Shown here piece after piece: positions 35,710 to 56,916 of a stretch of 64,000 nucleotides of DNA. Each line of letters starts with the position of its first letter. Position 1 is the first letter of the stretch. The stretch spans positions 13,979,076-14,043,075 of the forward strand of contig OX387604.1 of the NCBI GenBank assembly GCA_947568835.1. Direction: 5' to 3'. Under the pieces are notes generated by a model. It saw only the letters and a program-made list of their open reading frames with translations. It was not told the DNA's origin and ran no database searches. The position numbers and the translations under genes are program-made. The stretch comes from Protonemura montana. Its lineage: Eukaryota; Arthropoda; Insecta; Plecoptera; Nemouridae.

Positions 35710-38700
35710 CTGCCAGAAGAGGAAGTGTGTGTCAATCTTTCCTGCTCTAGCATTGATTCATTAAGTAAGACTTCTGAGACATATGGCTTGGCATGGCTTA
35801 ACTTGCTCCTCCTGCCTGCTCACCTGCTTTGCCAACTAACAGATATTATTTTGAAATCTCAGTAGCCTGCCGGTATGTCTAGACCAATTTTTGTGCATTT
35901 TCTTTACTAATTCACACAGAGCAACAATATCCAAACATGTGTTTCGAAACCATGGAACCACAGCTGAAACAATGTGGTTAAGACCTAGATATTGAGGCCT
36001 AGATTTATTTTTAAAATTTTGTATCCTGACTGTCCAAGTTTGCGGAGCCTACTTATTGGAGTCCTTGTGCTATTTGTTAGTTTTGAGACAAAAGGATTTT
36101 GTAGGGGTCAAATAATACATCAACAATATTTATTTTAAAGTTGAATCAATCTCTTTGCTGGAGGCCTAGTTTTATGCATAGTTTTAATTAAATTCATAGT
36201 AATTGGAGTTCAATTTCTCTGTGTTAACCTATTCATAATTCGGATAGGTATATCTTAGTTAAGGAGTGCTTTCTGAATGTGATTTAGTTGCGAACCTCAG
36301 GTGCTAAAGGCATTGACATTGTACATAGCGGAAGATGTGAGCACCATCTCACTAAACAGTAAAAAAAAATTCCATTGAGAGTTTGCACGATGCCATACTT
36401 GCGGTTGGGGAAGCATCAAAATTGTCCATTTCATCTCCGTCTTCCGGTGAGGATTCAATCGACGGCACTACGATGACAACATCGTCCAGTTGGCGGAATG
36501 GTGCCCCCATTGTAACATTTCTGTACCCAGGGGAAGGCGATGAAGATATCACATATTGCGACGGGATGGAGCTGAAAATGTTAAAATTAAATTTTTTGGT
36601 GAAAGTAGTGGGATCTTCAATTCCTCTCCATCTTGATGATAGTTTTAGGGCAGCTTTTTGTGTTCTCATCTTAGACTTAATGGTGGAACTAGGGGACACA
36701 ACCACATGCTGGCCCAGGCCCATCTGTCTATTTTAGGGGGGCCCTGTTGAAATTTCAGTTAGTCGACTAGACTTTCGTTTTTAGTCGACTAGGAAAAAGT
36801 ACTAGAATTCACTTAGTTTTCATCAGAAAGTATTACAATCTATTATGCCATCCTTTTTATTAATTTTTTGCATTCCAACTTGCCACTGAGAGTGGCAGAA
36901 GGCAACAGGCAGTTAGTGGGCCCCAAAAGTAATCAGACCATAATAATTGGAATCAGAAAAAAAAGCTTTATTTCTGTTGATTTGTAATTGATTATTATTA
37001 TTATTTGTGGTGTTTAACGATGCACTGTTTTGACATCTGGCCATGCGGCACTGGTCTAATGGCGTCGATGAATGAGCAGATGATGATGAGGATGCTGATG
37101 AACCTAACCTAGCCTAGAAGGAAGGAAGGGAAACCCAGTGCCAGCATGTAGCCTACTCATGTCGAAGAGCACCAAGAGGACCACCAGCTAAACGTCCCTT
37201 CCGAAGCACGGTACAACGCGAACAACAGGATTCCTCCACAAATCCATGCTGTCGAGAGGTTGATAAGCAAGGCGAATGAAGTTTTTGTACTAACTTTCAT
37301 CCCTCTAACCTCTCCTAAACAGAACTGGTCATGTGTATGATAGTCACCTATCCAATACCTGACTCAGCGCAGTGTTGCTTAACTTCGGTGATCTAACGAG
37401 AACCGGTGTTTCCAACACGCCAAACCGTTCGGTCTTGTAATTGATGATTACACCGCTGAGAGAAAATTTTTGGTGTTAATCAACCTCAAAGTTTAGTTTA
37501 ATAGTATTATGTAACAGTTACTTTTTCACATGAACATTAATATTTTACCTCTTTTATGTGGTATTTGAGCATTTCTACTTCTAATTTGAACTTTCACTCT
37601 TCAAAACTCTTCAACCTCTCATACTCAATTCTAAAGGGTCGAAAACCTTTCTCAACACCGTAGGGTCGCATGCAACCAAATTCCACAAACGATGGGGAGG
37701 AAGGTTCATGAAAATATTGCGGGCAGATCCCGACAACAAAGTTTCTCTACTACTCGGGCTGCAGTTTTCAGAAAAATCAGTTGTAATGTTCCTAAACCCA
37801 TCAAAATTTTTCACAAATCACAGGGAACAAATGTAAACACATTGTTCGGTTAAAATGCACAGTAGATATGGTTTCCGTGGCAACTGGATTGCAGCGACGT
37901 GCATCTGGGTCGCCAATTTTTTTGGAGTACCAGACAGAACTGACGACCATGTCAAAGCTGAAGTCATAGTGGAAAGAGCTTAATTTAAGAACTAAGTTTA
38001 ACCTTTACACATCCTATATCAAGACGTTGCCATTTTTCGTCAAATATTTAGCCTGGATTTGTAATCGTCCAACAATATACAGCACCGAATAATCTGAGCT
38101 GATCTGATCTGAACTGATCTGAGCTGCACGAATTAGCCTTTTTGAAAAATGTCCCTTTAAACTGACCTATATGCAATGTTACATGGAAGCCCCTTCTAAT
38201 GAGCAAAGAGGAACATCTGACCAGCTAACAAACTGCTGTATGCACATTGCTGAAGTGTTAGTGTTACTATATGTGATTACCTGAGCGTAACCCTCTTTTT
38301 GATGCGATGAGACACATCTGAGTTTCCCCTGTGCATGATGGGGCGGTGGCTGCTCTTAGAGATGGGGGTGTTGGGTTCCGAACTGTGCTTGTCAACCAGG
38401 ATCGGTCTAGGTCTGAGGTAGACTCCAGCAGGTCCACTTGCACCCCCTAGTCCTGTCAGGGAGGGGTCTTCAGGAGGCAGAGGTAGTGATAGCAGCCTCT
38501 TTCGGTCTTCCATGTAGAGGTCCATTAGTTGATCAAGTTTCATCTCGATATCATCCACCTATAAAGTGAACAGTTTAAGATTGATTTATTTATTGGTTGA
38601 GTTGAATAAAAGCTGGTGATACGAGGTAAATTTCAAGGTTAAGGTTAAATTATTTTACACAATTAAGTCTCTAGACTGTTGTTTAAACAAAACAGAGGCT

Positions 38701-41700
38701 GACAGAGCGTATTTACAGTGTAACACTATGCTAAAAATGTAACGTTATTACTCCCCCGCTCTTTTTGGAGTGTCAGGTATATTTTAACGTAACCAGTGGG
38801 GGCCTGTGAGTGTTTTCCAGCAGGGAAAGATGTCGGCATGCCATTAGCCATAGCCATTAGCAATGTCATGTTTTTTATGTAGGCTCAATGTAGCGAACAA
38901 ACAATTTTTTTCAAGGCGTACACATTATTTTTCATTGCGTTATTTGTACTGCAAATAGTGCATTGCCAGTTGAAACATTTGCCATGAAACCAATGTACAG
39001 GGCTCACGGCGTTGCTGAAATGAGCGTTTAAGGACATTTACAGCCGAAAAAGCATAATCCCGCTACGCTGCACTGCAGGGCCATTTATGAAAAGCGCGGC
39101 GGCCACATGCAAAGGAGCTACGCAGCCAAACACGACAGTTTTTTACAAACAGTGCGTAATTTTAAGTTTTAATTTCATTTAGAACCCCAATTGTATATCA
39201 AACAACTGCTTTTTTTTTTTAAAACATACATATTTTTTTTGGTCAGAACGCGGCTCCCCGCGTTCTGACCTTGCAGACCTGCACCCCGATCACGAGCTGT
39301 CCCTGAACTTAACGCATAATCGAACCCACTTTTGAATATGCAAATCAGGATTCAACTTGTATAATTTGATTGTATAGCAACTATTTACCTGTCTCTCCAC
39401 TTTGACCACCCTGGAGGCCAAGCTGATTTTGGAAGCGTACACATCCTTCGATTTAGAGCCTTGCTTTCCAAGGATTTGGTCCAGTCTGGAAAAGAATCCC
39501 CGTTGTCAGCTTTGAAATAAAGCATACACTTGCTATGCTTGTGAAGGTGTTTCCATGAGAAAGATAATTGGATCGAACGGTTTGGTGTGTTGGAAACACC
39601 GGTTCCCATTAGATCACCGAAGTTAAGCAACACTGCGCTGGGTCAGGTATTGGATTGGTGACCATCATACACATGACCAGTTCTGTTTGGGAGAAAGGTC
39701 GGCGGGTTAGAAGTTAGTACAGCAACTTCATTCGCCTTACATCTCAACCTCTTGACGGCATGGATTTGTGGAGGAATCCTGCTGTTCCAGTTGTACCATC
39801 CTTTGAAAGGGACGTTGAGCCGGTGGTCCCCATTATGCTATTCGACAGGAGTAGGTTACCTGCTGGACCGGGGTTCCCCTCCTTCTTTCTAGGCTAAGTT
39901 CATCATCATTCTCATCCTCATCCATTCATTCATCGACGCCATTAGACCAGTGCCATATGGCCCGTTGTCAAAACAGTGCGTCGTTAAACACAATAATCAA
40001 TTAATCAAGGATAATTGTTTAATGGTGTTGTAGACAATCTGAACAATCTAACCAGACCAAACTTGGTATTGACGATATGAGACGTTTGCGTTAGGACGGT
40101 TAAAGAATTTGAATTTGAAGAACGCCGAATGAAGCGACCTCTTTACAGAGCAGAGCTGAATATTTGGCCGAAAGTGGCTAACCTAAAATGTAGTAAAAAG
40201 AGAAAAAAAATCAAAACTGCGAAGGAAACTGCGGCCTTGGGATCGAGATAAATAATAATAGTTGAATACCTCAAAACATGTAAAATACTGAGATGTTGAA
40301 ATATGGTCTGATACCTAGTAATAGTGGTTTGGAAAAATCGTCTCTACTTGAATGCATCTCATAAATCCAATACCAGTCTCTTAACAGACTAAAAATCTGC
40401 TCGTAAGAGTGAAATACATATATATTTGACATTTTTAACAAACTTTTATAAAAAAAAAAAAAAAGTTTGGTCTTCACAATAATGTCATAACATTGTACTA
40501 GCTGAAAGCCGAAAGGAATATCAATTTAATTGCTATGGTTTTAGCGTGTAGCAATTGTCAACATTCAAATGATGTCACATTGATTTAGTCTGTTTTTGTC
40601 TTATTAATTGTTAAGCCATGCAATGGTTAACAAAGATATTACAGTGCTCATGCACATCATCCATAAATGCCAACATTCTCAAATCATGCTCACATGCAGT
40701 GAATACGTCTACATTTGCAGCGGAAGTCCTGACCTATTCAATTGAATTGTGTATGAAAAACCGAAGCAAAAATTATAAGAATAATTTAACTGTAGGTGCA
40801 AATTCTTGTGCGTGCTCCACGACAGAACTGATCAACAATATAAATGTTGTTTGAACTACATGGCTTACATAATCTCATAATAAATCTATGCTGAAAGTTA
40901 AAATGTTGCATGTATTTATGTAGTGGAACTTATTTGGCAATTTTAAGACTGTACAATGAATTGTGATAGCACTTATCATATGTGTGCTTACAATTCAACC
41001 CAGCCTGGTGCTGCAACAATGACTTATAAAGCAACCATTTTGCAGGACATAGGGTTCAATGCCATTGTTAATAGCAAAGTGGACGGAATTGGGCCGTGTG
41101 TGACTAACAAGCATTGTTATTTTTCTTTGTGTAGTGCCAGGAAAGCTGGACAATGCTGTGATGGTGTTGGAGGCCTATTAACACTCTTAGATTACCTCGT
41201 TATGAAATTAGCATTTTTTTCTACCCTCAGTTCTTCTCAGTGGTATTTAAAGTAATTTGGTACCATTACATATCATGGACAAGAAGTTTATTCTTTTTGA
41301 CAAAGATGGAAAATATTGGCAGTGAAAGGAAAATCAAGTTATGAAAATAGGGAGGAGCTTGTGTAGCTTGTTTGTCCTAAGGCTAGCATCTGCTGTCTAA
41401 GGGTGGGACTTGTAGCTTAGATAAAGGAATGGAAATTTTCTCTAAGGTTGTATTAGTTGAACGTACCTGCACTGTAAACTACGGACGCGATTCAGGAGGT
41501 CTGCGTGGCCCGACGAGTACTGCTCAATCACATCTTTTACATCATATGGTTTCAATGCTTCTCTAAACTTCTTGCGTGCGACAAAATATTTCAGCTGGAT
41601 GATAGAACAAAAAGAAAAATAGAACACTCGGATCAACAAATAGCAGAGGCACATGACAGGAAATAAATTCCACTTGGCATTTTCCTGGAAAGCTGTTCGG

Positions 41701-44700
41701 ATCTTCTCGGTAAAGTTTTAAAATGTATCAACATATATAGGCTTTTTGTTACGTTCTGCAAGCATGGAAATGCTGACCATCCCAAATTTAAAGAAAAAAA
41801 TTGGTATTTATTTATGAAAAATGTTGTGATTTCTGAAGCTATTTGTTTTGCAAGAGAAGAATTAAATAGATTCCTTCGAGAAAGTTGCAGCCCATTCATC
41901 AAAACCAATTCAAATAATGTTCACACAAACTGGACAAATGTTCAGTGTGAGTACAGAGTCGAACGCTTGTCCAGGCATAACACCGTTTGCTAATTGGTAG
42001 AAGCTGCAAATAAGAACTCAATGGAATGCACGGCAACTTGAGAGAACAGAAGATGTTGTTATTGTGTTATTCTCTATGGGTTTATTCGAGACACGCATAG
42101 TAACTACTAGATAGCAGCAGCGTTAACATTTTTGTCTCTAGCTGGAAGTAATGTAGTGAATCTAGAAAGAGACAGGAATGAAACTCCCTTAAAATCTCGT
42201 CATGCGACTACCGCTTCCTCTTCGAAGCAAATATGTATTGGACAGCTAGGGTCAAAGGTGGGTAAAGACTCTCACAAGGGCAAGATCAGCAGCGGCTCAA
42301 AGTTTCCAGCAAGTCGGGCCCCAGCCATAAAAACCGCCCAGAAACCAGATGAGTGTGTGTTTCGGTGGAGTTAATTTTTGTACGAAATACACTTATTACA
42401 AACTTTACTCTTAGTTCATCTGCTCACCCACCAGTTGCAACTGGGGCACAGCCTTGACTGAATTTTGACGAGCCGCCACTGGCCAAGTAGCCTGTAATTA
42501 ATAACGAGAAGGAAATGCAAGAGCGACGCTTCCTACGGAACGATGCATCGAGACAACCAACACACGAGTCAAGGAGTAGTGCAATAGGGTTTGATTTTCA
42601 CAGATAGACTAGTCAAGCTTTGAGCTGCAAGGCAATAAAAATCTTGAAAAATGAGCTCTGTAGGCACCTATTCATCTTCGATATAAGAGATTTCCAGAAG
42701 CAAGTGGAATGAAATTAAACTTGGCATTGTTGAAAGGACATGTCCTAGCAACTTCACAAAGTTATTCTTGATCACTTTGTGACTTACGATAAAATGCAAA
42801 AAATTACCACACTTTAGTTTATTGTAAAGGTTTGGCAACAAAACTTGATACCTCATCCGCATATTCTTGGAACGGCTCAATAAGTCCACATGACCTGTAG
42901 AATATTGCTCGAGTACATCCTTAACATCGTAGGGCTTTAGCGCTTCCTTTAATTTCTTGCGCGCTACAAAATATTTCATCTAAAGTCATGGAGAAAGAAA
43001 TCCAAGATGAAAAGCTTGCCAAAGAACAAAAAAAGGGTTTCCTAAATCGAAGGCTGTCATGAAACTTACTCCAGGAGTGGGAAAAATAATATAACATTTC
43101 CTATCAAGTTGCGACCCGTGTGTTTCAAAACAATGTCTCAAACATTTTTTTTTCGTACTATTGAAAAGCAAAATTAATTACCGTACCAAGTTAAACATAC
43201 TTACAAAACTCACGAAAAGGGAAGTTTTGTTGTAACACACCCATGGATATAAGGTATGTGATCATAAAGGGGGTTTCCTTCTAGAGTTAAACTAATATGC
43301 ATAAAACCTTAGCAGTAATTTTCTGATAAGGGCTTGAATACACTGCACAACCATCAAGCTATTTACCAACTTACCAAAATCTATATATATTTTTTAATCA
43401 CTGGCTTTTCTTACTAGTAATGAGCTGGTGTTTGACCATATACCTTTAACAGAGGGTGTGTTTGCTCTGACAATTCATCCAAACATTATGAAGGGGTAAA
43501 TGAGACCAAGCTTACCTTTCGGATTGCTCGAATCGCTCCCTTATGCTGGCTTGTGAGGTGAAGGCAGCGCGGTTCGTCGTCATCATCTGAAACCATCACA
43601 CAGTAAAAAGCAGCCATTGCAAAACAATTAAAATGCTATGGAAACCTGTGCCATTCACTTAGCACTGTGGACATTTTGGAATAATATAGTGACTTTCCAA
43701 GAAAGTATGAAAAAGTAACAGTGAATATAAATATTCCTTATTCAATCACTTACGGCATCTATGCGATGGTCTCTCCAGGCAATAAGCAATAAAACTTGTT
43801 ATTCAGTCAGTCCAAGGATGGACATTCCCACTACCCAGATTCGTCCACGATGCTGTGTACATGCATCATGCATTTGCAAACAACGTTATTATAGACAATA
43901 ATCACCATGCAAATTAAAACCCCTGGACAAGATACAGATTAGCAAAATAACAAGAAATGTGAAGGTAGCCCAAAAAAGTAATTTAAATACTAAAGAATGT
44001 GGTAGTAGCAGTGGCCATCGTAAGAAAAAAGAGGATCTGTTTCGGGAAAGTCAATAAAATCTTCTTCTACCTGAAACTGCTAAAGTGTTTGGAACCAGAA
44101 CGAGAAATTCGAAGCCATAGAGTCAGGAAGCAGCAGGGCGCACTAAGTCCCTCATAGTGAATTAGTGCACCACTCTCCACGAAACAACTTCCGAATGAAA
44201 GTCACCAAGAATTTTGTGTTAGCACAGTAAAGAATAATATAAAAAAAATCCTTAAAAGAAGCGTCAAAGATCGAATAATGAGATTCTGAATTACTTTGCA
44301 ATTCATAGAAAATGTTGGTTGTCCAGATGATGAGACATAAAGAAAAAGAAAATAAAGCATCTAGTGTAGGTATCTCGTAGTCTTAGAGTAAGCAATCAAT
44401 GAAAAATAGCGTTTGATGAATCTGAATGACTCAATCAATTGAAAAATTTAACTAAATATTAAGCTCACACGCTTACAAATGCAAGAATCAGAGTGGAAGA
44501 TAATCCTATAGCACTGAAAGTTTAAAAATACATCCTGCAGCAGAAGGTTTACCAGTTTTTGGCTGTGGTAACTGATTAGTAGGATTGTGGATCAGTTAAC
44601 AATAGTAGTTACTGACTTCAATTGATTTCCCATGATAAAGGTCTGATATCATGAAACTTTGTGGAGTTATTATAAATAAACCAATTATTTTATTCCCCAA

Positions 44701-47700: not shown

Positions 47701-50700
47701 TTCCCAGAGAAGTCTTGGTTCGTCAGTCTAGCTTTAATATCAGCTGACAGTTTATTGAAAATGTGTACCCCCATAGAGACAGGGCTCTTGTCATTAATGT
47801 TTGTGACAGATAGGTTTGTTACATTATTGCCTCTTAACATATGGCCATGAGTTTCTAAACTTATTTCTACTTGCTTATTTTGTATGACATACATTATTAT
47901 ACTGTAAATGTAAATACAGGGCAATGGCAGTATATTGAACTTTTTGAATAATGGCCTGCACGAGTCTTTATAAAAGGTTCCTGGTGTAGTTGGGTCGTAG
48001 CTCACATTGGCCAAGTACCTGACCGCCCGCTTCTGGAGTCTGAACAATTTAGATGCCCGTTGTGATTGACCCCACAACTATGCCATAGTTCAGTCTTGAG
48101 TGCACATATGAAAAGTAGACAGCTTCAGCGGAGTTGAAGTCGCATGTTTTCATAATGCGTTTTACAAGAAAGCACCCTGAAGCAACTAAGAGGGCAGTTC
48201 TGTTTATATGGGGGTCCCATTTAAGTTTGTTGTCTATAATTATGCCAAGAAATTTGGTTTCATTCAACACCTGTACGCTTTTCCCATATAAATATAGTGT
48301 CATTATCTGATGATCTAGTGTTAGTGTTAAAATTAATTAGTACAGTTTTTTTGTTATTTAATTTCAGGCCATTTTCCCTACTCCAGTTGGAAATTTGAGA
48401 TATGCCAGCTTTACAAATTGAGTTGATGGACTCATATAGCTTTCGCAGATCAGATGTGTAGTGTCATCCGCATAGGTTGTTAAGTTTCCGGTATTTATAG
48501 ATTTTGAGAGATCATTTATGAATATGATGAAAAGTAAGGGGGAGAGGGTAGCGCCCTGGGGAACCCCGGTGACAATGTTTACTACCTTTGAGAGATATGA
48601 GCCTGTTTGGTCAGTTAGTCTTACGGATTGCTTGCGTTCAAAAAGGAAAGATTTTATCCAGTTCTTGGCTGCCCCGCGAATGCCATAGTGTGGTAGTTTT
48701 TGAAGTAGTAAGTCATGGTCGACACTATCAAAAGCTTTTGTGTAGTCGTAAAAGACCCCATACGCAGCCTTCTTTTCCTTTTTTGATGACATCAGTCGGT
48801 TTACAAAGTCGGAAACAGCTGTTGTTGTTGACTTATTTTTCCTAAACCCATGTTGGCAGTTGTCTAGGTAGTCAAATTTTTCGAGATAGTTTTCCAGTCG
48901 ATTGCAGAACGCATTTTCGAATAATTTTGAGAACACAGACAGGTTAGAAATTGGCCTGTAATTATCCGTCTGTGCTTTATCTCCGCCTTTGAAAACAGGA
49001 GATACTATGGATTTCTTTAGAACTTCCGGGAACGTTCCAGGCTCAATGTATAAACATTTTCCCCCCTTTCTTCCATAAATGGAATAAAAATAAAAATGTG
49101 TCTCAAGTGTATTTCCTGCATTGCAATCCAGAGGGTAAAAGTGACTGCTAATATTTTTAAGCCCACATGAGCCTTCTGTTCCACTGGAATCTTAAGTAGT
49201 ACATACAGAAAATTCTTTTGTAAGACAAGAGCATATTTTAAGTGACCAAGTTGTCACAAATTCAGCAAACTAGATTTATTTGGGAGTATAAAGCAGAACC
49301 ACATATACATGGGATGAATTGTATGCACCATTTATCCAAAAGTAGCTTGCCACATTTTCATTGCCACAACTTGCAAATAAAATGACTGCAGTATTTTCAT
49401 AATATTGATGTCTATTCACCTGGAGCTGGGAGGACTAGGAAGGGGGACTTGGTGTATCCTCCAAGTGGCAATGGACATGGATTGTTCATCAGCCGCATAA
49501 CACCTCCACAGGCTCTGAATGAGTGTCGCAGCCGGCTGCCGTCGCCGGATCATGTGTTTTTGTCGCTGCTGCTGCTGCACCTTGAGCGCAAACCCTGAGC
49601 CAAGAATACCCTGGGAAGAATACCACAAGCTTGCATTACTGTCAACTCTAGTGGGCACGCCTCTACATAGCGGAAAGAAAGTGCAATCAAACCAAAAGAC
49701 AAATTCGAGACCCCTCGATTGCCCTCGAGTACTATGGAAAAATAACTTTTCAGGTACCAGGTACGTATTGTACCCAGTAAGACCTTAGTTTTCAGGTTGT
49801 ACCAGAAGAAATAAGGATTTCTTACTTATCCAGTTGACGAGTAAACGGCAACACACTTTGTGAGAGCAGTGTTAAAAATTGGCTTATTACCACAAACATT
49901 TGAGGTACCTTGCTAGTCCAGGAATGGTTATACCACAGTTTCATTATTGAGAGACAGTGATTTTTCCTTTTTGTTTCACAAGTATTCTTATTTCAATTGC
50001 TGCTGCAAATGTTAACAGACAAACTAGCCATCAGTTGTGGCCCCATGGATTTAGGAAATGAGTTTTTCTCTAAATGAGAAGTGAAAAAAAAACTGAGTTT
50101 GGTAGACTAGAAGCTGAGAACGAATTCCTACGTAAATATAATAATATATTAGGAACAACGTACTGCAGGAAGGGCGAAGAAAGAAATGCCGAGAAGTGCG
50201 CAGAACGATGCAATTACTTTTCCCTGCCACGTGATGGGAACTGCATCACCATAGCCGACAGTACACAATGTGATCTGCAACAAGTAAATGAGTCTTATAA
50301 CTTACAAAGTAATGAGTAACAAACACAATTGCCCCTACCGAACGGTTTGGCGTGTTGGAAACACCGGTTCTCGTGAGATCACCGAAGTTAAGCAACACTG
50401 CACTGAGTCAGGTATTGGATTAGTGACCGTCATACACATGCCCACTTCTATTCGGGAGAGAGGTTGGAGGGATGAAAGTAAGAACACCAACTTCATTTGC
50501 CTTGATTATCAACCTCTTGACAGAATGGATTTGTGGAGGAATCCTGCTGTTCGAGTTGTACCGTCCTTCGTAAGGGACGTTAACCTGGTGGTGCTCTTCG
50601 ACAGAAGTAGGCTATGTGCCGGCACCGGATTTCCCCTCCTCCCTTCTAGTCTAGGTTAAGTTCATCATCATCATCCTCATCATCATCCACTCATTCACCT

Positions 50701-53291
50701 ACGCCATTAGACCAGTGCCGCATGGCCAGAGGTCAATCAAAATGACCCCTCCCTACAATGCAACTGAAATTGAGCTGCTGCTTGCATTCAGCATACATTA
50801 ATTTTCATTGCCTTTCTCCCAAGCTGATAACAAACTTTTCTGTTGGTTTATTAAAGCTTCCTCTTTATATTATTGCTCTAATATGACTGACTTACATTTT
50901 TTAGAAATAATGGTTGAAACAATTGAGGCTTGTTTGGAAAGGTTCAAATACTAACCACACCCCACCAGAGTGCATCTGCAAAGTTGGAGAACTTTTCTGC
51001 GTTAGCTTCTTTCTCTGCCAAATAAACGAGGAATGAAGCGAAGATGAGCCCGAGGAAACCAATGTAGAGCGTTGTGATGAGCTCCTGCCGATGCGCGTAT
51101 ACTACGGAGCCTAGCAGCTTCCATGTGCCCCCCCGACGGTCCATTCGCACCATCCGCAAAATCTGGAAGAAGCGGAGTCCGCGCAGTGCCGAGAACGATC
51201 CCATCGACGAGCCCATCCCGATAACAACCAGCGACGCCAGGATGGTCGTTACATCTGAAAACGAAGAGGATTGAATTACCAACTCGTCAACACAAATACC
51301 AGATATGACACCAAATAATCATGACAAGGACTAAGCCATGCCAGAGTAATATCACTTTGCTCAACAAGCTTATTCCGAAGCTTACACCGATAAGCCAATT
51401 TTATGTTAACTTTAAGGGTTCCACCCTAAGTCTGACCATAAGAAGGTAAATTGAGAATAACGAGCAGGCCCATACCTATGATGCAGAATGGTCTGCGGAG
51501 AAACTTGAGTCGCCCGATCCATCCTTGGTACCGAGATCTGCACCCTGAAGACCACAATCTGCAAGCCAATCGTGCAATCACGTTTTCTGCCAGATCTCAG
51601 AGGAATGTTGTGTGGGATGCTTCATTAAATATAGTGTAAGAGGTGCAGATTGACATTTGGCCTACCTGTATGTCAGGAAGAGTGGCTGTGGGGTGGGGGG
51701 GGGGGGGGGGGGGGAGGTGGGGCCCTAGTCCTGCATTTTGTTTCCATGTGTTAAATAATTATTTAATCAGTCCCTAGGCGCATCTGGCTTCAACACTAAA
51801 TTACTAAGAATAATCGGCTTCCTGTCCACGTAGTTTTTTTTCAGGAGAGTAACTGCATAAGTGCCTAGATTTGTTCAATTATAGATGAGGACAGTCAAAA
51901 TAATTAAATCTGGCCTCACAATTGAAAGAAATGCGCACAGCTAATGATAACATAATCTGTAAGCCTGTTGCGGTTGACTTTTAAGCCACTACCATGCACG
52001 CCGTAATACGCCCATCGGGTTGCTGCATCAGGTTGCAAGGTCTATAAGAACAAAATCCGCAAATGAACGAAGATTGTCGTGAAGTAATGTTTGCAGCTGC
52101 AACACCGCAGATTAGGTTTATTACGGAACGGGAACACACAAAATAAGCACGCATATTTGGCAACGAGCCGTTTCAGCTCAAGAGGTGCAATAGTAACTGT
52201 AATTCTAGCATACTGTGTAACGTCAAAAGTATTCGTCCAACTCAAGTACATCGACTAGTTCAGATCAGATCAAAATTCAGATACACAAGAGAAGCCCCAC
52301 GCATGCAAATTATTTTACGGAGAAGAGATTTCTACGACAGGGACGTCCCATCCCATCCTATTTCATGACATTCCAAGAGCACAACTATTACCATGCCATT
52401 ACTCAATTGATTGATTGATCGATCGATTGATTGTATATTTTTATTTGAGCTTCTTGTGTTTAACATGATACGATGAAATGTGATGACTGTGAAACAGGTT
52501 ACAATTCCAGATACGAAGTTGTTCATCTACCGACAGTGCAATTAACAGAAAGGTCGGTAATTCAAGTCAAATAAGCACAATACAAATATTTTATAATACA
52601 AAATAAAATATAATATAATATAATAGAAATATATTTTAAGTTTACCATACAGAATTCTGACCATACCATTCTGAGCAATATTTGGGCCATGATAGATGTT
52701 TAAATATCATTCAGATGGCCGTGTTTGCCGTCAATTGACATTAAAGTAAAAATTCCGTATTCTATTCGGTGTCAACCAGAACTTTCAAATAGCGAAGCCC
52801 CATCGGAAAAGAACCTAATACTAGACACTACACTAAGGACACTTGCTTTACCCTCTCTTTACTATGATATTATAATTTAATGCCCGGTTCTGGACCCCGA
52901 GTAAATTGCTTTGCTACGCTTTTGCAAGGGCTTGCAAAGTTGAAGTGAAGTGACCATAGGGCCCACGCGCTGACAAGCAAAGGTGAAACGACCTTACACC
53001 CATGGTAAAGATGGCAGGATGTGACGTGCCCTGTCTGGCGATCTCATTAACTCCATGGCTAACGTTAAATCTACCATTGAACTTCTTATGCCTTTTTTTT
53101 TTCAAAGTTGGTTACGAAAAGTGCTGTCTTAGAGAAATTTCAGAAAATGAAGTTACCTGAAGCCGAACTCGACAGTGAACCACACCAGTACAACGCTCTC
53201 CAAGATGTACAATGCTTTACCCGCGTCGTCCTCGTACTTTTTTATCGTCGAGAACACGGAGAGCGCAAGGCACGTGAACACCATGCAAAAC
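35432..53291 (-). CDS. KCNQ: KCNQ-type (Kv7) voltage-gated potassium channel gene, 5' end missing
   Basis: Twelve exons (53157-53291, 51476-51558, 50956-51254, 50164-50274, 49420-49610, 47290-47525, 43516-43586, 41467-41594 or its alternative 42852-42979, 39389-39485, 38281-38558, 36399-36571, 35432-35709) join in phase with GT/AG borders. They encode about 690 residues from S1 to the stop. The order is S1-S2, S3, S4 ([19 protein letters not shown]), S5, pore helix, filter TVGYGD, S6 with the PAG hinge, IQ-type helix A, helix B, then helix C/D coiled coils. Kv7 channels are tetrameric plasma-membrane K+ channels giving slow, non-inactivating M-type current; calmodulin binds helices A and B. 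The arthropod ortholog is the best match. The N-terminal exon(s) before S1 were not found within the window. The gene runs towards the telomere-type array, its stop only about 1.9 kb from it. Confidence 0.95.
36399..36571 (-). CDS. KCNQ: KCNQ exon: C-terminal variable region
   Basis: 173 nt with acceptor acattttcag and donor gtatgg. It encodes (S)[19 protein letters not shown], then [20 protein letters not shown], then [18 protein letters not shown]. Phase 2-to-1 at the start and 1-to-2 at the end match both neighbours. If the donor is ignored the frame runs on for 15 codons to a stop at 36352-36354, so an alternative short C-terminus by intron retention is possible. The region has no recognisable domain; assignment rests on phase, direction and position. 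Confidence 0.78.
36982..37445 (-). mobile_element. 5S rRNA-derived SINE, full length (copy A)
   Basis: Lies on the minus strand inside the KCNQ intron between 38281 and 36571, in the same sense as the gene. The head near 37330-37432 (CCGAACGGTTTGG...CACCGAAGTTAAGCAACACT) resembles 5S rRNA, including the internal promoter region ending in GGTATTGGATAGGTGACTA. The body carries GGATTTGTGGAGGAATCCTG and a (CAT)n-like stretch. The tail reads CAGTGCATCGTTAAACACCA with an (AAT)n end. The element is flanked by an 11-bp target-site duplication TTGTAATTGAT (36982-36992 and 37435-37445), so its ends are well defined. Confidence 0.88.
38281..38558 (-). CDS. KCNQ: KCNQ exon: helix D tetramerisation coiled coil
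   Basis: 278 nt with acceptor actttatag and donor gtaatc. It starts [20 protein letters not shown], the heptad-repeat assembly helix corresponding to VEKQVQSIESKLDCLLDIY-type sequences of Kv7. A proline- and glycine-rich tail follows ([28 protein letters not shown]) and it ends HRIKKRVTL. The last two bases AG join C of the next exon to give Ser, which supports the splice to 36399-36571. No in-frame ATG start is intended; the GTG at 38558 is simply the first codon of the exon. Confidence 0.93.
39241..39270. repeat. Perfect hairpin, 13-bp stem and 4-nt loop
   Basis: GGTCAGAACGCGG, loop CTCC, then CCGCGTTCTGACC, preceded by T-rich DNA (39231-39240). It lies in the KCNQ intron between 38558 and 39389, in a GC-rich patch from about 39000 to 39300 that may be an old DNA-transposon remnant. 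No family is assigned. Confidence 0.75.
39389..39485 (-). CDS. KCNQ: KCNQ exon: helix C region
   Basis: 97 nt with acceptor cttttccag and donor gtaaat. It encodes (R)[19 protein letters not shown] and then [13 protein letters not shown]. Kv7 proteins have the same LDQILGK...GRVVKVEKQV segment between the C-terminal coiled-coil helices. It ends in phase 0 before [12 protein letters not shown] full-length antisense 5S-SINE begins 85 nt upstream of its acceptor. Confidence 0.93.
39563..40017 (+). mobile_element. 5S rRNA-derived SINE, full length (copy B)
   Basis: The head at 39571 has the CGAACGGTTTGGTGTGTTGG start and the GATCACCGAAGTTAAGCAAC 5S core. The body and the GTGCGTCGTTAAACAC tail end at about 40009. 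It is flanked by the 8-bp duplication GATAATTG (39563-39570 and 40010-40017). It is antisense to KCNQ, and its 5' end lies 85 nt upstream of the acceptor of the 39389-39485 exon. Confidence 0.88.
41467..41594 (-). CDS. KCNQ: KCNQ exon a (canonical): helix B and start of helix C
   Basis: 128 nt with acceptor tcatccag and donor gtacgt, phase 0 in and phase 2 out. It encodes [20 protein letters not shown], then [14 protein letters not shown], then NRVRSLQC, close to the Kv7 consensus [20 protein letters not shown]. The final AG joins A of the next exon to give the Arg of SLQCRLDQIL. This is the copy nearest the downstream exon and nearest the family consensus. Helix B pairs with helix A to bind calmodulin, and the end of the exon leads into helix C. 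Confidence 0.94.
42852..42979 (-). CDS. KCNQ: KCNQ alternative exon b: helix B and start of helix C
   Basis: 128 nt with acceptor gactttag and donor gtatca, phase 0 in and phase 2 out. It encodes [20 protein letters not shown], then [14 protein letters not shown], then SRSKNMRM. It is a duplicate of the exon at 41467-41594 with the same length and phases. The helix B core and the EQYS-GH turn are conserved, but the last eight codons differ sharply (SRSKNMRM against NRVRSLQC). The usual Kv7 sequence here is like CRIKSLQT, so this copy is the divergent one. It is probably a mutually exclusive alternative giving channels with different calmodulin or assembly properties. Confidence 0.88.
43516..43586 (-). 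CDS. KCNQ: KCNQ exon: acidic linker and start of helix B
   Basis: 71 nt with acceptor ggtttcag and donor gtaagc. It encodes (D)[23 protein letters not shown] and ends in phase 0 just before the duplicated helix B exons. Vertebrate Kv7 proteins have the equivalent ...LTP..K..IRAIR... sequence before M/LKYFVA. It is too short to stand out as an open frame. Confidence 0.9.
43587..45825. other. KCNQ intron; no other gene recognised
   Basis: AT-rich intronic sequence between the polyQ candidate and the 43516-43586 exon. It holds a short CCCAC/CCATC simple-repeat patch at about 45095-45150. The open frames at 44933-45121 and 45168-45389 show no motif or splice logic and are left as chance. Confidence 0.55.
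45826..46092 (-). CDS. KCNQ: Candidate alternative KCNQ exon with a polyglutamine tract
   Basis: An open frame in the KCNQ sense direction encodes [20 protein letters not shown], then a run rich in Gln (CAG/CAA codons, about 45890-45975), then [20 protein letters not shown]. The SPKVP...SFSLF part resembles the SPTKVPKSWSF segment that follows helix A in vertebrate Kv7. A weak donor (ACA|gtaatt, 45825) leaves phase 1 and fits the 43516-43586 exon. Three acceptors are possible. The ones ending the exon at 46088 (gacag) or 46151 (strong pyrimidine tract, gtaccag) are phase 2, making it an alternative to 47290-47525. The one at 46092 (gcgaag) is phase 1, making it a cassette added after it. The weak donor keeps confidence low. 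Confidence 0.4.
47290..47525 (-). CDS. KCNQ: KCNQ exon: serine-rich A-B linker
   Basis: 236 nt with acceptor gtttcag and donor gtgagt, phase 2 in and phase 1 out. It encodes (S)[19 protein letters not shown], then [13 protein letters not shown], and ends [17 protein letters not shown]. This is the disordered, phosphorylation-prone linker between helices A and B. It joins in frame to the exon at 43516-43586 (Asp made from G plus AT). The acceptor is immediately abutted by the (ATT)n tail of a LINE inserted upstream in the intron, so part of its polypyrimidine tract is transposon-derived. Confidence 0.85.
47539..49055 (-). mobile_element. Non-LTR retrotransposon fragment (Jockey/CR1-like), 5' truncated
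   Basis: On the minus strand it starts at about 49055 with [20 protein letters not shown]. Reverse transcriptase motifs follow: [48 protein letters not shown] near 48720, [20 protein letters not shown] near 48550, and an intact TYADDT near 48480. Frame changes separate this from the C-terminal parts ([20 protein letters not shown] near 48240, [16 protein letters not shown] near 48020, [20 protein letters not shown] near 47930). It ends in a stop at 47640, a short 3' UTR and an (ATT)n tail at 47539-47560, directly next to a KCNQ 3' splice site. Confidence 0.88.
49420..49610 (-). CDS. KCNQ: KCNQ exon: end of S6 and calmodulin-binding helix A
   Basis: 191 nt with acceptor cttcccag and donor gtgaat. 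It opens with [19 protein letters not shown] (end of S6 and the basic post-S6 segment, a known PIP2-sensing region in Kv7). The IQ-like helix [18 protein letters not shown], comes next, then [16 protein letters not shown]. The junction ALPA|GILGSG is the classic Kv7 exon boundary. It ends with AG (phase 2), which is compatible with both the 47290-47525 exon and one acceptor of the polyQ candidate. Confidence 0.95.
50164..50274 (-). CDS. KCNQ: KCNQ exon: selectivity filter and S6
   Basis: 111 nt (37 codons, phase 0-0) with acceptor gttgcag and donor gtacgt. It encodes [19 protein letters not shown] and then [24 protein letters not shown] is the K+ selectivity filter and FFALPA precedes the S6 Pro-Ala-Gly hinge completed by the next exon. 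It was found by looking for the filter on the minus strand, because no open frame of useful size marks it. Its acceptor is 62 nt from the 5' end of an antisense 5S-SINE. Confidence 0.95.
50337..50738 (+). mobile_element. 5S rRNA-derived SINE (copy F), 3' end eroded
   Basis: Starts ACCGAACGGTTTGGCGTGTT and keeps the 5S core GATCACCGAAGTTAAGCAAC and GTATTGGATTAGTGACC. The body with GGATTTGTGGAGGAATCCTG continues to the GACCAGTGCCGCATGGCC box near 50727, after which the usual GTCGTTAAACAC tail is missing. It is antisense to KCNQ, 62 nt upstream of the acceptor of the filter exon. Confidence 0.85.
50956..51254 (-). CDS. KCNQ: KCNQ exon: S3, S4 voltage sensor, S5, pore helix
   Basis: 299 nt, the longest transmembrane exon, with acceptor gttttcag and donor gttagt. 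It starts with [14 protein letters not shown] (S3). The S4 voltage sensor [20 protein letters not shown] follows, with arginines spaced every three residues and the Gln typical of the Kv7 third position. Next come the [11 protein letters not shown] linker, S5 ([20 protein letters not shown]), the turret, and the pore helix FADALWWGV. It ends in phase 0, so the next exon starts directly with the filter-side Ile. Confidence 0.96.
51476..51558 (-). CDS. KCNQ: KCNQ exon: S2-S3 linker and start of S3
   Basis: 83 nt with acceptor cttgcag and donor gtatgg. It encodes (R)[19 protein letters not shown] and then LRRPFCII(D), the arginine-rich S2-S3 linker entering S3. Kv7 proteins have the same LWSAGCRSKY-type segment. 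The final G joins AT of the next exon to make the Asp of S3. The exon is too short to stand out as an open frame. Confidence 0.92.
51690..51716. repeat. Poly-G run in a KCNQ intron
   Basis: GGGGTG followed by 20 consecutive G (51695-51714). On the transcribed (minus) strand this is a poly-C run, with G-quadruplex potential on the + strand. Homopolymers of this kind are also error-prone in assemblies. Confidence 0.85.
53157..53291 (-). CDS. KCNQ: KCNQ exon: S1 and start of S2
   Basis: 135 nt with acceptor tttgcag and donor gtaact. It reads [16 protein letters not shown] (S1), then [13 protein letters not shown], then S2 residues [14 protein letters not shown], typical of Kv7 S1-S2. It starts with one leftover base, so the preceding exon must end in phase 2; that exon was not found. 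It ends with AG, completed by A of the next exon to give the Arg before LWSSGC. Its acceptor lies 59 nt from the 5' end of an antisense 5S-SINE. Confidence 0.92.
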
Positions 53292-53338: not shown

Positions 53339-56300
53339 ACATATGCAGTTACCGAACGGTTTGGTGTGTTGGAATCACCAGTTCTAGTGAGACAACCGAA
53401 GTTAAGAAACACTACGCTAGGTCAGGTATTGGATGGGTGACCATTAGCTCTGTTCGGGAGAGAAGTGAGAGCTTTTTTTTACATGTTTATTAGGTGAAAC
53501 AAAAAATACATAATTTCTTCGCACAGTTTTTCACAAAGCCCATTAGGCTCACCTGAGGAGCAAAAAAAAATTGTACAACAAATAATAATAACAGCCAATC
53601 AACCAAACACAAAAAAGAAATGAAGTGAAATACAAATAAATATATGAAATACATAAAGAGGGATATAGTTGGAGGGATGATTAAGTTTGTAAAAGCCAAC
53701 TTTTAACACGATATTTAATTTGAGTAAAGGTTTCTAGTTCACGAAATCTGGTGGAAGTTTGTTAAAACGTTGAGGGACATTATATTCTTGCAATCGCTTC
53801 CCAAACTTGTTTATATGGGATGGAATTATGAAAGATTCTACATGTCTTAATCTTGCGCTTGATTTAAGGGTCTTGTGTGTATTGTCAAAGAAATATTTTA
53901 AATAAATTTTGTAATGGAAAAGTTCTCGCGCTGGTAAAATCTGTTAATTCTGGTATATGTCTCTTACATTGTGACTGTTCTCTTTCAATGATCTAGGGGA
54001 GATAGCTTTTATTATAGCATTTTTAATCGATGACACTCTTTCTATAAAATAATCTGACGCATTGCCCCATGACAACAATCCATATAATAGTTGTGTCTCT
54101 ACTAAAGCTAGGTTAACTGTTTTAAGCAAGTGACATGGTGTTCCAAGGGATCGTAGTTTGAACAAACAAAAGGCAGTCGAATTTAATTTTTTTCACACTT
54201 TTTGAACATGTGGTCTCCACGTAAAAAATCTGTCAACTGTGACACCGAGATAAACAAAAGTATTAACTTCACTGATTATACCCGTGCAATTACATTGTTG
54301 TACATGCAAGTTGTGTAGACAATCATAGGAGTGGTGCAAAATTGTAATACTCTGTTGAGAATTTCGGTTGAAAGGTGAGCAAATGTGCATTCATTTAGTC
54401 TGCTTAGGGTTACAAATTAAATTATTATCGTGTGTCCAACGTAACACGTTTGTAAATTCGGACTGTAGCACATCAACAGCACTTTCCAACTTGTCATGGC
54501 TACAAACGATCACTGTATGGCCTACATACATAAATATTTTACATTTTTTTCAGCACATTTAAATAACTCATTAACATAAATTAAATAAAGGGTTGGCCCT
54601 TCTAGAAAGCCTTGTGGTACACCAGTTGTAATAGTTTTAATCTTGCTATATGTGACTCGAACTTTAACCACCACGTTTCTAGAATCTAAGTAATTGGCAA
54701 ACCATTGAAGTAAAGGTCCTCGTATTCCGATGTTATCTAATGCTCTTATTAATTTGGAGTGACTAATGGTGTCAAAAGCTTTCGTGAAATCAATGAATAA
54801 AGCAAGCGAGTGCAAGTTATCATTTTGGTTTTTATTAATTAAATTCAAGAACTTTAGGAGAAGATCGGATGTACTTTTTTATTTTGAAATCCAAATTGAT
54901 TTTCGTTAACAATTTGCTATACTTAGATAAATATTTTGATAATTTTAGAGCAATATTACGCTCCATGATTTTTTATTACTGGCAACAAGGAGATTGGTCT
55001 ATAGTTGGAAAATATCAAATGATATTCCTTTTTGTAAACAGGGCGAACTATGGACGTTTTTAACCCTACAGGAACTTTATACCTTCTTTCATTGATAGGT
55101 TTAAGAGTTTTGTGATAATTGGGCTCAATTTCTTAGAATAAATTTGCAGGTCTTTAGCTCGGACCTCATAAAATCCAGGAGATTTCTTTGTATGCATTCC
55201 CATTATTCTTGCTTCCACTTCACTGACCATGGCTGGAGGCTTGTACATGGGATAAGTTGTGCTATATCATGTTGCCAAATACACTGTAAAGTAACTATGT
55301 CACATTTATGCAGGGCCAATTCAACCTTATTGGTGAATGTTAGTTGGAAATGCTCTATAATTACTTTAGTCAAAAAACGTTTTCCCAAAAAACTCTCGAT
55401 TGTTTGATATACTGACAGTGTGTTCTTTTTTCCCAGCATCATGTTAATATTTTGCCAGGATAACTTCATATCTCCCCGTGATAATTTAAATTTATTTTTA
55501 TAGTATGTGGTCTTTGCCTTTTTTATTTCGCACCTTGCGGTTTTTTGAAAAGCTGTGTAGGTTGCATGACAAATCTTTTTACAAGATACTCGACAATTAC
55601 ACCATCGTTGAAATACGCGATCCCTATCATAGCACAATGACATTAATTCTTTTGTCATCCAGGGTTTTTGAACCCTTTAAGTTTTTTACAGAACTTGCAC
55701 AAGCTTTTGAGCCTTCATAACAATTTTTAAATTCATATACCATTGAGTCATACAACACTTGACTTTCATTGATTTCCTCCAGCTTTTCCCATTGACATCT
55801 ATGTAATGCTTCTTTTAGATGCCCTTCATGTAATATTAGAATTTTCCGAGATTCAGGCCCGCTATTCACGTCCTGTTGAGAATTCTTGTTTAAAAAAATA
55901 TCTACACCAGTCAAATAGTGGTCTGACAGCTTCATTTTAACAATACAAGAATTAATATTTAAGGACTTACATCTCACTAAAATATGGTCGATACATGACG
56001 ACGTCAATTTCCATCTACAATCTTTCCCCTCGTGAGCTGTGAGTTTGAAAATCCATTTGTAGCAATAGCACGTTTATAATTTTGCACACACAAATCTTTC
56101 TCTTTAAATCCAAGTTCTTATCACCAGCCACAAGATAACTTCCATTACCTCTATCTAGCATAAATTGTTCTAACTCCTTGAAAAACAACATTTTGTGCAT
56201 GTGTGGCGGTCTGTAAACTGCTAAAATTCCGATTTTAAAAGGTGATTCATTTGGTTTACAGACATTTAAAGTACAATGCAATCCTTCAACATTTTCAAAA

Positions 56301-56916
56301 TTGTTTTCGTGTACAACATCCACAAGTATGTCAGATTGAACGTTCATAAATATACCACCGCCTTTTTTTATTCTCTCTTACTTATATAGGTTGTAACCAC
56401 TCATTGCATAATATGAGAGAACTTGGTTCTTGATATGTGTCCATACTTCAGTTAATATTAGAATTTGAAATTTTCCAATCACACGTCTTGAAGCAAAACC
56501 TGGAGTTCATCCCAATTCTTGTTAATTAAACGAATATTTAGAGAGAAACAAGTGAGACTGCACGTGCCTAATGTTATGGCCCAGTCATCAATTTTATTAA
56601 CCACCACACGGTTAGCATGAAAGTTGTACAGAAACCTATTCGCCCTGTTTACCACCCTCTCGACAACATATATTTGTGGAGGAATCCTGTTGTTTCATGT
56701 TGTACCGTGCTTTGGAAGGGACGTAAGCCGGTGGTCCTCTTGGTGCGCTCCGACAGGAGTAGGTTACATGCCGGAACAGCCCTCTCCTTTCTAGGCTAGG
56801 TTAGGTTGATCACCATCCTCATCATCAACCACCCATTCACCGACACAATTAGACCAGTGCCACATTGCTCGTTGTCAAAACAGCACGTCGTTAATCAATC
56901 AATAACGTATGCATTT
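53339..56916 (+). mobile_element. 5S rRNA-derived SINE (copy C/D) split by a LINE
   Basis: The 5S head lies at 53351-53472. The rest of the SINE body and its tail (GACCAGTGCCACATTGC...CGTCGTTAATCAATC) lie at about 56614-56904. The two parts cover complementary portions of the consensus, and 12-bp direct repeats with 10 matches flank the whole (53339-53350 ACATATGCAGTT, 56905-56916 ACGTATGCATTT). One SINE was therefore interrupted by the LINE at 53473-56613. The head is antisense to KCNQ and starts 59 nt upstream of the S1 exon acceptor. Confidence 0.8.
53473..56613 (-). mobile_element. Non-LTR retrotransposon (Jockey/CR1-like), nearly complete but inactivated
   Basis: Read on the minus strand, an apurinic-type endonuclease comes first: ILTEVWTHI near 56450, AVYRPPHMHK, then CIDHILV and the catalytic LSDHYLTG near 55925. 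A linker and reverse transcriptase follow: KKSPGFYEVRAKDLQ near 55160, LALFIDFTKAFDTISH near 54790, TTGVPQGFLEGPTLYLIYVNE near 54580. The C-terminal part has LVETQLLYGLLSWGNASDYF. Several frameshifts and stops break it. The YxDD catalytic box is degraded to YVGHT near 54520, so it cannot reverse transcribe. The 3' end is a short A-run (53474-53480 on the complement). It is inserted in a 5S-SINE. Confidence 0.85.

Follow-up and report, generated by a model that had tools for sequence, protein, structure and literature searches.

A tandem pair of probably mutually exclusive exons in the helix B-helix C region of a pancrustacean KCNQ channel gene

The KCNQ locus and its paired exon

We analysed a stretch of 64,000 nucleotides of contig OX387604.1 (forward-strand positions 13,979,076 to 14,043,075; hereafter the window), whose minus strand carries a gene for a voltage-gated potassium channel of the KCNQ (Kv7) family. 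Neuronal excitability is set by channels of this family. Calmodulin, phosphatidylinositol 4,5-bisphosphate (PIP2) and subunit assembly come together in their helix B-helix C region, in which mutations causing long-QT syndrome are found. Exons from S1 to helix A were placed by tblastn against the window, with a human KCNQ2 fragment as the query, and the segments S1-S6, the K+ filter TVGYGD and helix A (IQ) were found upstream of a pair of similar exons, on the same strand and in the right order (53290 to 49383). The two exons of this pair, of 128 nucleotides (nt) each, are transcribed in the order copy 2, then copy 1 (Table 1). When joined to the exon downstream, the peptides of copy 1 and copy 2 match the Pfam family KCNQ_channel (PF03520) with 87.8 and 81.5 bits, against a cut-off of 25, and for both copies the closest matches in the PDB are KCNQ4 and KCNQ5. 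On sequence grounds we class the gene of the window as KCNQ2-5 type and not KCNQ1 type; a separate KCNQ1-type gene, named by reading its sequence and not from a tree, is present elsewhere in the genome.

The original prediction for this DNA described two phase-matched 128-nt exons about 1.26 kb apart, and its coordinates proved exact to the base, with AG and GT at the borders of both exons and a spacing of 1,257 nt. The acceptors read ATCATCCAG/C for copy 1 and TGACTTTAG/A for copy 2 (the slash marks the exon border), and a donor matrix scores the donor of copy 1, CAG/GTACGT, at 5.7 and that of copy 2, GAG/GTATCA, at -0.2. Both copies start in phase 0 and end in AG, leaving an Arg codon that is finished by the exon at 39485. 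When the four possible joinings are translated, the frame stays open only with copy 1 alone or with copy 2 alone: joining copy 2 to copy 1 produces a TGA one codon past the junction, and skipping both copies leads to a TAA after ten codons. Because 128 nt is not a multiple of three, and double inclusion and double skipping both run into stops, only exclusive use of one copy would make a channel. The features by which mutually exclusive exons have been predicted (homologous neighbours that agree closely in length, share a phase and have splice sites that fit together; PMC3228551) are all present in the pair. According to the same source, exons with these features that are nevertheless annotated as constitutive or differentially included occur in 6 of 1705 genes on the Drosophila X chromosome, and a human survey reports exon lengths that are not multiples of three in 377 of 629 mutually exclusive clusters (60%; PMC5740500). 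We put at about 85% the probability that the copies are tandem-duplicated, mutually exclusive exons of a KCNQ2-5-type (M-channel-type) pancrustacean gene, supplying distal helix B, the turn after it and most of helix C; the use of copy 2 is predicted from sequence constraint and the logic of the frame.

The immediate stops on double inclusion and on double skipping would also be compatible with a poison-exon switch, in which both copies are selected and regulated inclusion of both (or neither) lowers channel dose through nonsense-mediated decay (NMD). Such a switch would work without channel peptides being conserved in the two copies, yet they are conserved in both, and it may coexist with mutually exclusive use; we give it the slimmest chance of the explanations considered. 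Copy 2 could also act as an alternative 3' end, with its frame staying open for about 60 codons beyond the donor, until a stop that directly follows 42671, and the channel truncated before helix D. There is indeed a 103-codon open frame (42979-42671), with AATAAA at 42086 and 41812, past the stop. We nevertheless consider this very unlikely, given that the frame past copy 1 ends after a few codons, that an extension of such length arises by chance about once in 20 (arithmetic with even base composition), that the GT donor is kept in the same phase as in copy 1, and that a channel lacking helix D should assemble less well.

Returning to the pair as mutually exclusive exons, we found no third copy of the alternative exon in the window by tblastn with either copy (next best E 14), and no second copy of any other KCNQ exon by tblastn in the window, a search that weakly conserved exons, such as those of the A-B linker, could escape. 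Genome-wide, where hits above the Pfam cut-off were also obtained, three exons of this kind were found, the pair and one in the KCNQ1-type paralogue, in a search where only the best candidates were scored and which a strongly diverged exon could escape. Open frames resembling those of LINE reverse transcriptase or endonuclease, read by eye, are also present on the KCNQ strand at 48367-49191, 54525-54878 and 55206-56377 (minus), the first of them inside a KCNQ intron.

Table 1. Exons of the KCNQ gene and clustered TGCATG words, in coordinates of the window.
Feature	Position	Strand	Basis and remarks
S1-S2 exon	53156..53290	-	tblastn E 9e-10; borders approximate
S2-S3 exon	51459..51560	-	tblastn E 2e-9; borders approximate
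S3-S5-pore exon	50944..51255	-	tblastn E 4e-35; borders approximate
Selectivity filter-S6 exon (TVGYGD)	50164..50274	-	tblastn E 9e-10; borders approximate
Exon of the S6 end and helix A (IQ)	49383..49610	-	tblastn E 8e-14; 3' border approximate
Three TGCATG (Rbfox-type) words	43860..43911	-	about 275 nt 5' of the 71-nt exon; post hoc
Exon before the pair, 71 nt, proximal helix B	43516..43586	-	AG/GT borders and frame; donor AAG/GTAAGC
Copy 2 (5' alternative exon), 42 residues + AG	42852..42979	-	donor GAG/GTATCA, weak
Copy 1 (3' alternative exon), 42 residues + AG	41467..41594	-	donor CAG/GTACGT, strong
Three TGCATG words	40617..40698	-	about 770-850 nt downstream of copy 1; post hoc
Exon after the pair, 97 nt, helix C end and linker to helix D	39389..39485	-	starts by completing Arg
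Helix D and C-terminal tail, open frame	38280..38558	-	position and eye; tblastn weak (E 12); borders approximate

Divergence of the copies and selection

The two copies are identical at 83 of 128 nt and at 29 of 42 residues, and tblastn with one copy against the window recovers the other at E 5.5e-19. At the level of codons, 10 are identical, 19 carry synonymous changes and 13 non-synonymous ones, and the differences fall on codon positions 1, 2 and 3 in the numbers 10, 8 and 27. NG86 counting gives a non-synonymous divergence (dN) of 0.22, with the synonymous divergence (dS) saturated and so without an estimate. The introns beside the two exons show no similarity (19/60 and 16/60 in ungapped comparison). 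Since the flanking introns are unrelated and silent sites are near saturation, the duplication must be old and is no assembly repeat; an assembly artefact and a recent duplication are both ruled out by the same two observations. Both copies have been retained as coding sequence, because 29 of the 42 residues are common to them despite silent sites near saturation.

Selection on both copies, with a conserved core, had been part of the original prediction, together with a dN/dS check that we ran as a pairwise codon likelihood between the copies. This gave an omega of 0.028 for the whole exon and rejected the neutral model (p 1.7e-9), and the claim was borne out. The constraint is unevenly spread along the exon, with an omega of 0.031 in the first 34 codons vs 0.50 in the last 8 (p 9e-6, the split chosen post hoc and the branch length poorly fixed at so high a divergence), and residue changes affect 7 of 8 positions in this tail vs 6 of 34 in the core, where all six are conservative (Fisher p 4e-4, also post hoc). 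In neutral simulation at 1 substitution per codon, one of 3000 runs stayed free of stops with at least 29 identical residues, and at 2 and at 4 substitutions per codon none of 3000 did. As judged from these comparisons, both copies are under strong purifying selection, and a loss of copy 2 would go unnoticed in the tests only if it were very recent.

Such a loss belongs to a different and quite unlikely explanation, that copy 2 is a decaying pseudo-exon, the leftover of an old duplication, which is not spliced any more. Decay would be compatible with the tail omega of 0.5, with a Ser at a conserved hydrophobic position of helix C and with the weak donor GAG/GTATCA, even if a weaker donor fits a regulated exon and a decaying exon equally. 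Yet copy 2 has no stop or frameshift, its AG and GT are intact, and 28 of 34 core residues are the same in both copies despite near-saturated silent sites, long neutral drift being excluded by the simulation.

Changes in the protein and comparison with known channels

Residues are numbered as in human KCNQ1. On this sequence the exon aligns to residues 520-561, with the next exon completing R562, and the residue names in a table of long-QT variants agree (PMC7212895). Single-sequence models of the two exons, which are weak (mean pLDDT 68 and 69, pTM 0.23 and 0.25), predict two helices, at residues 2/3-14 and 19-40, with a turn at KPYD between them. They fit published accounts in which helix B ends in a sharp turn and helix C then stands perpendicular to the membrane, where the four subunits form a loose bundle (PMC7072864), and in which R555, K557 and R562 of KCNQ1 are named as helix C (PMC13347974). 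We read the exon, from its sequence and these models, as covering the last part of helix B, the turn after it and the greater part of helix C, with the variable tail in distal helix C, outside the calmodulin-binding face. The helix B calmodulin-binding module of the original prediction was right in that a helix B segment is encoded, but too narrow, as the turn and most of helix C are encoded too; its strongly differing end residues are likewise there, but they lie well inside helix C and not at its entry.

The helix-B part is nearly constant between the copies, with L/M, F/L and R/K changes only, and basic residues (Arg or Lys) are found in both at the positions equivalent to KCNQ1 526-528, 539, 555, 557 and 562. 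From copy 1 to copy 2, the changes in the tail are N554S, V556S, R557K, S558N, L559M, Q560R and C561M, so that copy 2 has one additional Arg (560) and a Ser in place of a hydrophobic residue (556). Position 556 is occupied by Ile in KCNQ2, KCNQ4, KCNQ5 and the species' own KCNQ1-type gene, by Val in copy 1 and by Ser in copy 2, and the spacing 552, 556, 559, 563 suggests that it is a helix-core position. In the last 9 residues copy 1 has 4-5 and copy 2 has 3-4 in common with four relatives, which makes copy 1, by sequence, slightly more family-like in the tail.

In KCNQ1, the mutations K557E, R555C and R562S are reported to reduce PIP2 binding (PMC13347974), a PIP2 site has been described as shaped by the helix B-C linker together with calmodulin (PMC7072864), and a study of Kv7.2 reports mutual influence between the distal assembly domain and the calmodulin module (PMC5647379). 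The exchange between copies would likely have an effect on helix-C bundling, subunit pairing or PIP2 coupling, and the sequence does not suggest that calmodulin binding is simply lost. Where a switch of calmodulin or assembly behaviour had been proposed, assembly or PIP2 coupling is the better supported part, and the calmodulin part loses ground, with the helix-B part nearly constant.

The same helix B-C domain is found in vertebrate KCNQ2, KCNQ4 and KCNQ5 (PDB 9ixz, 4gow, 9j38). Among the 34 core residues, KCNQ4 has 22-24, KCNQ5 23 and KCNQ2 20 in common with the copies, and all three have the same basic residues as both copies at 555, 557 and 562, and, unlike copy 2, an Ile where KCNQ1 has I556. 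We know of no alternative copy of the helix B-C exon in vertebrates. The original prediction likewise knew of none, and the main text of two human surveys, searched for KCN and KCNQ, agrees. The KCNQ1-type paralogue, on the same contig as the window, has a homologous helix B-C exon (G000:C16:4649426-4649539) with 24 of 38 residues (63%) in common with copy 1, and no second such exon in the 11 kb examined. Its gene structure differs, as the intron after this exon lies at K557, in phase 0 and 14 nt upstream of the matching intron of the window gene (R562), and the intron before it is absent, the exon being merged with the one upstream (G000:C16:4647926-4651039). Two KCNQ genes have been described in crabs (PMC5096308) and one in Drosophila (PMC3168433), and the two genes found here fit crustaceans. 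The main text of the Drosophila KCNQ paper (PMC3168433) has no occurrence of 'splice', 'isoform' or 'exon'.

Tandem-duplicated, mutually exclusive exons, likewise homologous neighbours in a voltage-gated channel, are known from the arthropod ion channels cacophony, Ca-alpha1T, slowpoke and para (PMC9741552). In cacophony, partner-binding residues are kept and others differ, as in the KCNQ pair; the KCNQ pair belongs to another gene family (Kv7), and it is for several of the published events that functional evidence is reported (PMC9741552). That review counts tandem duplicated exons in 5 of 13 voltage-gated channel families in Drosophila, the five not all named, and in 4 of 14 in human; its section on tandem exons names Ca, Na, Slo and NALCN channels and not KCNQ, and the term 'KCNQ' has no occurrence in its text. 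Among the open-access papers searched, no title or abstract opening pointed to a mutually exclusive KCNQ exon pair.

Splicing control, proposed mechanism and genome context

On the transcribed strand of 49400-38280 (11.1 kb) we found 9 TGCATG words vs 4.0 expected (P 0.02, 2000 second-order Markov sequences). Two triplets of this word, each within 80 nt, bracket the pair, and two such triplets were obtained in 0 of 2000 random sequences. No other hexamer that contains all four letters has two such triplets in the region; eight simpler hexamers do. Contig C1 encodes an Rbfox-type RNA recognition motif that is split over two exons, with identities of 83% and 91% to the human domain. Control of the copy choice by Rbfox is speculative. 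Steric exclusion and U2/U12 incompatibility are unlikely as exclusion mechanisms, because the intron between the copies has 1,257 nt and the sites are ordinary GT-AG. In Dscam, mutual exclusion by docking site and selector depends on strong intron-intron base pairing; RNA pairing of this kind was rejected as the exclusion mechanism here, no exact complementarity between different introns going beyond shuffles. Within the middle intron (41595-42851), a stretch of 14 nt, CCAGTTGCAACTGG, is perfectly self-complementary, a length that none of 100 shuffles reached.

In the mechanism that we propose, the exon ending at 43516 would be spliced to one of the two copies, and that copy in turn to the exon at 39485. 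The reading frame would enforce exclusivity at the level of the mRNA, with wrong products presumably lost to NMD. Copy 1 would be the default isoform, because of its stronger donor and slightly more family-like tail, and copy 2 the regulated form, perhaps via Rbfox. Both isoforms would retain calmodulin binding and the basic PIP2 cluster, and the Ser and the extra Arg of copy 2 in distal helix C could alter bundle stability, subunit pairing or the coupling of PIP2 and calmodulin. We tentatively hypothesise that this constitutes a 'helix C switch' of a pancrustacean M-type channel, that is, a segment swap under Rbfox or cell-type control in neurons or muscles, altering subunit pairing and sensitivity to PIP2 and calmodulin while leaving the calmodulin-binding face untouched; we regard it as possible, if rather doubtful in this full form.

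Several observations speak against the exclusive use of the two copies, or against the control proposed for it. The donor of copy 2 is weak, and its Ser556, where all five other KCNQ sequences compared have Ile or Val, could mean relaxed constraint; in the same way, the contrast between tail and core may reflect relaxation instead of adaptive change. At 0.5 substitution per codon 37% of the neutral runs pass, so that a very recent loss of function of copy 2 would pass too, but the silent divergence between the copies is far above that value. TGCATG is frequent on this strand across the whole window (21 minus vs 9 plus), its test was post hoc, so that the P values are generous, and the sites are distal, 275-850 nt away. 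For pairing of the docking type, the longest exact complementary runs between different introns are not above shuffles (P 0.31-1.0, 100 each). A similar exon pair was also sought in collections of prokaryote contigs (74 pattern matches) and viral contigs (67), and none was confirmed, as expected there.

If the two copies are exclusively used, the pair is a natural experiment in which helix B is nearly fixed and helix C varied, providing two native isoforms from one gene, and Kv7 becomes a candidate for the arthropod channel families that are tuned by tandem exons. The ingredients are individually of known kinds, which makes the surprise a moderate one. The proposed swap in helix C, if true, would mean that Kv7 is tuned by splicing; to our knowledge, such splice-based tuning of helix C is not known in vertebrates, where separate genes serve instead.

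Directly downstream of the KCNQ gene, the window holds a very large interstitial array of telomere-like pentamers at 1-33540, which continues leftwards (G000:C16:13970000-13979900). Of all its 5-mers, TTAGG makes up 35%, TTCGG 30%, TGAGG 15% and TAAGG 5%, in recurring blocks, and Tandem Repeats Finder (TRF) describes it as a single 33.5-kb array of TAACCGAACC. The array is not a chromosome end, because it lies at about 14.0 Mb of 29.6 Mb and the contig itself starts with plain CCTAA repeats (the other end is not made of them); it may be the relict of a fusion of chromosomes or a satellite derived from telomeres.

Elsewhere in the genome, long COX1 copies are present on contig C4, which is longer than 5.7 Mb (G000:C4:5760925-5762262 and 5776811-5777755), one of them scoring equal to the mitochondrial copy; they would represent either a large recent nuclear mitochondrial insert or a mis-assembly. 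The mitochondrial contig itself (C34, 15,885 bp) has the order I-Q-M-nad2-W-C-Y-cox1-L(UUR)-cox2-K-D-(atp8)-atp6-cox3-G-nad3-A-R-N-S-E-F, in which atp8, given in brackets, is presumed. The tRNA Leu(UUR) stands between cox1 and cox2, which is the mark of pancrustaceans; on this gene order the arthropod origin is confirmed and narrowed to Pancrustacea, and a chelicerate origin is rejected. ARAGORN reports 24 tRNAs on this contig, two of them probably spurious.

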